DNA of 64,000 nt from Thermococcus cleftensis (GTDB taxonomy: Archaea; Methanobacteriota_B; Thermococci; Thermococcales; Thermococcaceae): contig NC_018015.1 in assembly GCF_000265525.1 (NCBI RefSeq), positions 62,001 to 126,000 on the forward strand, read 5' to 3'. The number at the start of each line of letters is the position of its first letter. Positions within the stretch are counted from its first letter, which is position 1. Of the stretch, positions 34,416 to 60,872 are shown one piece after another. The notes beneath the pieces were generated by a model that was not told the DNA's origin, did not search any database, and worked only from the letters and a program-made list of their open reading frames with translations. A program made the translations under genes and the position numbers.

Positions 34416-34643
34416 ATGATTGTACCCCTAAATGCACTCCGCCCCGGGGAAAGGGGTATCGTCGTGAACGTGCTCGGCGGACCCGCTGTCAGGCAGAGGC
34501 TGGTGGCAATGGGCCTGACCCCCGGAGCGCCGGTTCAAATAATCGAGGCCCACAGCTACGGGCCGATAATCATCTCCGTGGGAGGCGTCAGGTTCGCAAT
34601 AGGCAGGGGAATGGCAGGCAAAGTGATGATCAGGAAGCTGTGA
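34416..34643 (+). CDS. feoA: Ferrous iron transport protein A
   Basis: 75 aa from the ATG behind GGTGATGCTC; two upstream in-frame starts lie in the ribosome site. The SH3-like FeoA fold is clear (LRPGERGIVVNVLGG, RQRLVAMGLTPGAPVQII, GPIIISVGGVRFAIGRGMAGKVMI). FeoA is a small cytoplasmic partner of FeoB. feoB begins 10 bp after its stop. Confidence 0.95.
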   Translation: MIVPLNALRPGERGIVVNVLGGPAVRQRLVAMGLTPGAPVQIIEAHSYGPIIISVGGVRFAIGRGMAGKVMIRKL

Positions 34644-59920: not shown

Positions 59921-60057
59921 GAGCGTCACCTCTGGAGGGTTTGTATGGTCAGCTCCCTTCGTCCGCTTATATACTTTTCGGCATGAATTAAGAACCCGAA
60001 TATTCCTGGAGGTTATCAAACCCGAAACCCTTAAAATTTTTCCTGAAAATTTTTCTA

Positions 60058-60213
60058 CCGCGTCCGACGACGCCCGGTGGCCCGGGCCCGGGAGCGTTCG
60101 GGCAGCGATGAGCGGGTGCGACGATGCCGGGCGGACAGGGCTTGGCCTCCGGACCGCTGGAGAAGGCCGAGGGCAGTCAATGAAGGCGGGGGATCAGCCA
60201 AGCCCACATTTTT
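60058..60213 (+). ncRNA. Probable double-hairpin H/ACA guide RNA
   Basis: A strikingly GC-rich non-coding stretch in a 325-bp gap. Hairpin 2: GGGCTTGGC (60138-60146) pairs perfectly with GCCAAGCCC (60197-60205), directly followed by ACA (60206-60208) and a T5 run. Hairpin 1: CGCCCGG (60071-60077) pairs with CCGGGCG (60127-60133), one base before ACA (60135-60137). Each unit is 63-71 nt, the size of archaeal H/ACA modules, with GA-rich internal segments suited to kink-turns. A TATA element CCTTAAAATTTT (60029-60040) lies about 26 bp before the predicted 5' end. Such RNAs guide pseudouridylation with Cbf5, Nop10, Gar1 and L7Ae. Target not identified. Confidence 0.7.
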
Positions 60214-60245
60214 AAGGTTCCCCTCCAACTTTCTCCGGTGAGAGT

Positions 60246-60872
60246 ATGGAGATGAAGGAGATAATCGAAGAGATAAGAGCGGTTCTCGACGAGAAGGATT
60301 CACTCAGGGAGGAAGCCCTCAAACTCACGAGGGAGATAGTCCGGCTCAGCGGGGACGCGGTAAAGGCGCTCCACAGGGGTGAGGTCGAGAGGGCAAGGGA
60401 GAGGCTCGAACTCGCCGGCAGAAAGGTTGCGGAGCTGAGGGAGATGCTCTCCGACCACAGGGACCTGTACCACACCGGCTACGTTCAGAGCGCCCACCAG
60501 GAGTTCGTTGAGGCGAGCCTGTTCTTTGCCTACATAACCGGTGAGGAATATCCCTCGCCCGGGGAGCTTGGGGTTCCCCACGCCGATTACGCCCTCGGAA
60601 TAGGGGACTTCATCGGTGAGCTGCGGAGGCATTTTCTGCTTCTCCTTCTGGCTGGAGACATAGAGGGGGCGGAAAAGACCTACCGCACGATGGAGGAAAC
60701 CTACGAGGAGCTGATGACGCTGGAATATCCGAAGGGACTTGTAAACGTCCGCGTGAAGCAGGATCAGGCCAGGGGCATACTCGAGAGGACCCTCGAGGAC
60801 CTGACGAGGGCCAAGCTGAGCAAAAGCCTGGAGGACAAGCTCACTCAAGTGCAGAATTATGTAAACCAATAA
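60246..60872 (+). CDS. Translin family protein
   Basis: 208 aa behind GGTGAGAGT. Wholly helical; it matches the archaeal translin family (REEALKLTREIVRLSGDAVKALHRGE, HQEFVEASLFFAYITGEEYPSPGELGV, YALGIGDFIGELRRHFLLLLLAGD, YRTMEETYEELMTLEYPKGL). Translin forms octameric RNA/DNA-binding shells, in eukaryotes with TRAX for small-RNA and tRNA processing. Archaeal role unknown. The T-run ending the upstream RNA doubles as its TATA box (TTTTTAAGG). Endonuclease V follows 20 bp downstream. Confidence 0.88.
   Translation: MEMKEIIEEIRAVLDEKDSLREEALKLTREIVRLSGDAVKALHRGEVERARERLELAGRKVAELREMLSDHRDLYHTGYVQSAHQEFVEASLFFAYITGEEYPSPGELGVPHADYALGIGDFIGELRRHFLLLLLAGDIEGAEKTYRTMEETYEELMTLEYPKGLVNVRVKQDQARGILERTLEDLTRAKLSKSLEDKLTQVQNYVNQ

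Follow-up and report, generated by a model that had tools for sequence, protein, structure and literature searches.

In the 64,000-nucleotide stretch of Thermococcus cleftensis DNA that was analyzed here (the window), mat on the minus strand and translin on the plus strand are separated by a gap that contains a GC-rich block with two hairpin units, and the question raised by this locus is which RNA, if any, is encoded there. The first-pass annotation had read it as a new double H/ACA guide RNA, and had matched it neither to a named RNA nor to a target. The covariance-model comparison that it proposed provides a family: the best Rfam match of the window is RF00060, HgcE (Pab105), at 60100-60225 on the plus strand, with 97.5 bits (E 8e-20) against a gathering score of 50 bits, and this is the sole Rfam match at gathering level in the window. 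A genome-wide search finds one copy of HgcE, and RF00060 scores above its cut-off in 72 of the 94 genomes of the family, the present genome counted among them. HgcF (RF00058), a different H/ACA family, gives the segment a sub-threshold 24.2 bits relative to its cut-off of 70. Pab105 is a published H/ACA sRNA of P. abyssi containing two motifs, Pab105.1 and Pab105.2, and the Thermococcus H/ACA guide genes are described as orthologues of those of Pyrococcus (PMC4652768). We consider it very nearly certain from sequence comparison that HgcE/Pab105, an archaeal H/ACA small RNA of two units, has its Thermococcus orthologue in segment 60058-60213, and on this assignment the HgcE between mat and translin is an already known RNA, so that the double guide RNA stands and its novelty does not.

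The extent of the Rfam match could by itself be taken for a sign of an H/ACA guide RNA not described before, as RF00060 spans unit 2 but just the 3' half of unit 1, which makes unit 1 look unannotated. However, a single HgcE match of 97.5 bits runs without a break across the unit 1 box and into unit 2, the published descriptions of Pab105 include two motifs and orthologues in Thermococcus, and unit 1 leads to the site already reported for Pab105.1; we give this reading next to no weight, and it is already refuted by the family match. The HgcE model itself has its start in the unit 1 terminal loop, base pairs in unit 2 only and a 3' end that runs into flanking DNA. With a start midway in unit 1 and pairs confined to unit 2, the model makes unit 1 easy to overlook, and since its start lies inside unit 1, both units were modelled anew from about 50 orthologues.

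The predicted RNA, read from the plus strand, has two hairpin units in tandem. Unit 1, the putative Pab105.1 orthologue (60071-60137), is backed by covariation and by 86.9 bits with its unit model, and has a lower stem of 8 bp (60071-60078 with 60126-60133, seven Watson-Crick pairs and one U-G) followed by the box ACA at 60135-60137. The 5' guide GGCCC (60079-60083) and the 3' guide GACGAU (60120-60125) lie on either side of the upper (GA) stem (60087-60116, paired as 60087-60090/60113-60116), which has compensatory changes at 4/4 pairs, and the sheared pairs G60092.A60111 and A60093.G60110, as read from the sequence, would form a kink-turn or kink-loop. Unit 2, the putative Pab105.2 orthologue (60138-60208), is backed by Rfam, covariation and its fold, and is closed by a perfect lower stem of 9 bp (60138-60146 with 60197-60205) that is directly followed by the box ACA at 60206-60208. 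Its 5' guide CUCCGG (60147-60152), present as such in 69/70 orthologues, and its 3' guide GGAUCA (60191-60196) enclose an upper (GA) stem (60154-60189, paired as 60154-60158/60185-60189) with compensatory changes at all five pairs, and the sheared pairs G60160.A60183 and A60161.G60182 would form a kink-turn. GA and TGA are invariant in both units in the orthologue alignments. The box ACA lies 15 nt from the start of the 3' guide in both units, so that each has the internal guide loop with an ACA box at 14-15 nt that is typical of archaeal box H/ACA RNAs; a spacing rule of 14-15 nt is given for productive archaeal guides (PMC4652768). The stems, boxes and coordinates of the first-pass annotation were right to within a few bases. 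Among the orthologues, unit 1 of genome G041 (L072) is missing the part in which the others have their 5' guide, and unit 1 of G029 (L071) has its terminal loop shortened to GCAAU, with unit 2 kept in both.

Free energy is a poor test for this segment, the block being GC-rich: the whole block (z -0.66) and unit 1 (z -0.44) fold no better than their shuffles, while unit 2 does (z -2.54), and unit 1 comes out misfolded in the minimum-free-energy structure of the complete block. Because of this misfolding and the lack of gain over shuffles, the argument was rested on covariation. From 70 collected orthologues, of which about 50 were aligned per unit, unit 1 shows changes on both sides at 9 of its 11 pairs, with 96.7% of cells staying paired, and unit 2 shows them at 8 of 13 pairs, with 95.3% of cells staying paired; covariation thus backs both of the motifs expected of HgcE/Pab105. 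None of 500 shuffles reaches the covariation score of either unit, and in slid controls the paired cells drop to 55% or less. What raises the segment above chance is the E value of its Rfam match, together with these compensatory changes and the fit of the pockets to their targets. Elsewhere in the window, weak unit 2 model matches at 34511, 62022 and 32317 look like chance, and a degenerate-pattern scan of all genomes returned mostly chance matches, in GC-rich bacteria.

Comparison of the pockets with rRNA, also proposed at the outset, uncovered the targets that had been missed, with bipartite complementarity to an rRNA uridine in each case. The unit 2 pocket pairs with 16S 17-22 through CUCCGG and with 16S 9-14 through GGAUCA, giving 6+6 pairs around U15, 12/12 of them Watson-Crick, at the 15-nt spacing (target stretch UUGAUCC-U-G-CCGGAGG), and this match was reached by 0/2000 shuffled pockets. 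In unit 1, the 3' guide pairs with 23S 2551-2556 and GCCC of the 5' guide with 23S 2559-2562, giving 6+4 pairs around U2557 (target stretch AGUCGUC-U-C-GGGCGAG), a match that is modest taken alone, as 23 of 2000 shuffles equalled it anywhere in rRNA. Unit 1 is accordingly placed as a predicted guide for 23S U2557, and unit 2 as one for 16S U15. Two other registers of unit 1 were rejected, that at 23S U295 needing a 13-nt spacing and lower-stem bases, and that at 23S U2555 needing 16 or 13 nt. U2589 of T. kodakarensis 23S, an orphan pseudouridine whose guide is unknown (PMC6138745), is absent among the target matches listed for either pocket.

Both sites can be related to P. abyssi by coordinate transfer. 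The spacing of 23S U2557 to neighbouring uridines, 31, 34 and 49 nt, equals that of L2554 to the modified U2585, U2588 and U2603 of P. abyssi, and U2557 is on this basis the predicted equivalent of L2554, which is the published Pab105.1 target (PMC4652768). For unit 2, there is a weak second match at 16S 972 with two wobble pairs, as described for the non-productive Pab105.2-S995. Pyrococcus likewise has a weak second 16S site 968 nt after the main site (969 if the count starts one base ahead of the target U), and if this is the S995-like site, then the main site would be S27, a position named as a target in PMC4652768. We thus infer that 16S U15 corresponds to P. abyssi S27, which would then be the Pab105.2 target. 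Both target stretches are identical in every rRNA sampled. The guides vary: those of Pyrococcus unit 1 form 4+4 pairs only, and six Thermococcus genomes (L060, L063, L064, L065, L067 and L068) have AGAU in the unit 2 3' guide, compared with GGAU elsewhere, a shared G-to-A change that breaks the pair beside 16S U15.

By analogy with the known system, L7Ae would bind each kink-turn, each unit would be joined by Cbf5, Nop10 and Gar1, and the U left unpaired in each pocket would be converted to pseudouridine, as established for archaeal H/ACA RNPs (PMC3608112). Cbf5 is encoded in the present genome. In T. kodakarensis, seven H/ACA-box RNAs were seen to be transcribed (PMC4247193), and deletion of cbf5 is viable (PMC6138745).

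The flanking signals were correctly noticed in the first-pass annotation, a TATA-like box before the RNA and a T5 run after it, though the second is better assigned to the neighbouring gene. The putative TATA-like box of the guide RNA, CTTAAAAT, is at 60030-60037 (+), and transcription would be expected to start near 60058-60062. The short leader before unit 1, 60063-60070, occurs in either of two conserved forms, (G/A)UCCGAC or GACGGUC, across several genera and may be part of the 5' end of the transcript. The TTTTT at 60209-60213 is part of TTTTTAAG (60209-60216, +), 30-37 bp before the translin ATG at 60246, and has counterparts in loci with a deleted RNA (CCCACACTTTTTAAGG in L131, CCCACACTTTTTAAGC in L134 and GCCTTTTAAGG in L133). 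Given this persistence, translin probably has its TATA box in the T5 run, and a terminator is the poorer reading; no terminator-like site was found for the guide RNA.

From its position, the segment could instead act in cis on translin, as a regulator or as a structured 5' leader, and not as a free guide RNA: translin lies directly downstream on the same strand in 50/70 orthologues. This is very improbable, since in the nine Pyrococcus the translin-endoV-ribK cluster has HgcE at its far end, beyond ribK, 11 of the 61 non-Pyrococcus orthologues (all Thermococcus) have no translin beside HgcE, translin has a TATA-like box of its own, retained where the RNA is deleted, and the conserved parts of the segment are guide pockets complementary to rRNA. 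The same distribution, with translin staying where the RNA is gone, speaks against the functional link to translin that had been hinted at, and the translin neighbourhood looks incidental. In 61/70 orthologues, the divergent mat gene lies about 160-190 nt before the start of the Rfam match.

The HgcE gene is deleted, with the mat-translin neighbourhood retained, in G015, G034 and G046, and decayed between mat and translin in G059, G078 and G066, the G066 remnant missing the first ACA box (loss loci L131, L133, L134 (gap after mat), L132 1198-1356, L136 and L158 380-520). In genus g2 (G001-G003), the unit models find no HgcE at the mat locus, and the unit 1 model finds none genome-wide. Several of the genomes lacking HgcE are near-complete, with G015, G034, G002 and G078 in single contigs, though loss may be overcalled in drafts. 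Such losses in relatives raise the possibility that HgcE is decaying and non-functional in the present genome too, but its stems, boxes and pockets are intact in both units, which makes a decaying gene here scarcely credible. Cbf5 is kept in all of the HgcE-less or decayed genomes checked (all but G066 and G003), HgcG is kept in the five checked (G015, G034, G069, G078 and G001), and both rRNA target sequences are unchanged in G015, the one HgcE-less genome checked for them. HgcE has thus probably been lost repeatedly in Thermococcales, with Cbf5 and HgcG remaining where checked, and these species would be natural knock-outs for two rRNA pseudouridines, in agreement with the viable cbf5 deletion of T. 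kodakarensis (PMC6138745). The scattered losses provide a simple comparative test of how much both modifications matter at high temperature, and this pattern is the only part of the case that may deserve a second look.

The annotation of the mat-translin gap is settled as HgcE, with the full extent of both units supplied and two expected pseudouridines named for the present genome, and a two-unit RF00060 model would annotate HgcE better. The closest known system is HgcE/Pab105 of Pyrococcus, which is alike in having two H/ACA units, ACA boxes, kink-turn elements and a unit 1 target equivalent to L2554, but differs in the upper stem of unit 1, which has canonical pairs in Thermococcus and extra G.A pairs with a bulged A in P. 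abyssi, a difference also noted for T. kodakarensis in PMC4652768, and in position, HgcE being beside mat and translin in Thermococcus but beyond ribK in Pyrococcus. HgcF/Pab35 (RF00058) and HgcG/Pab40 (RF00064), the latter also encoded in the present genome at C1:1920875-1921148, are likewise archaeal multi-unit H/ACA guide RNAs, but belong to other families and have other pockets than the segment described here.
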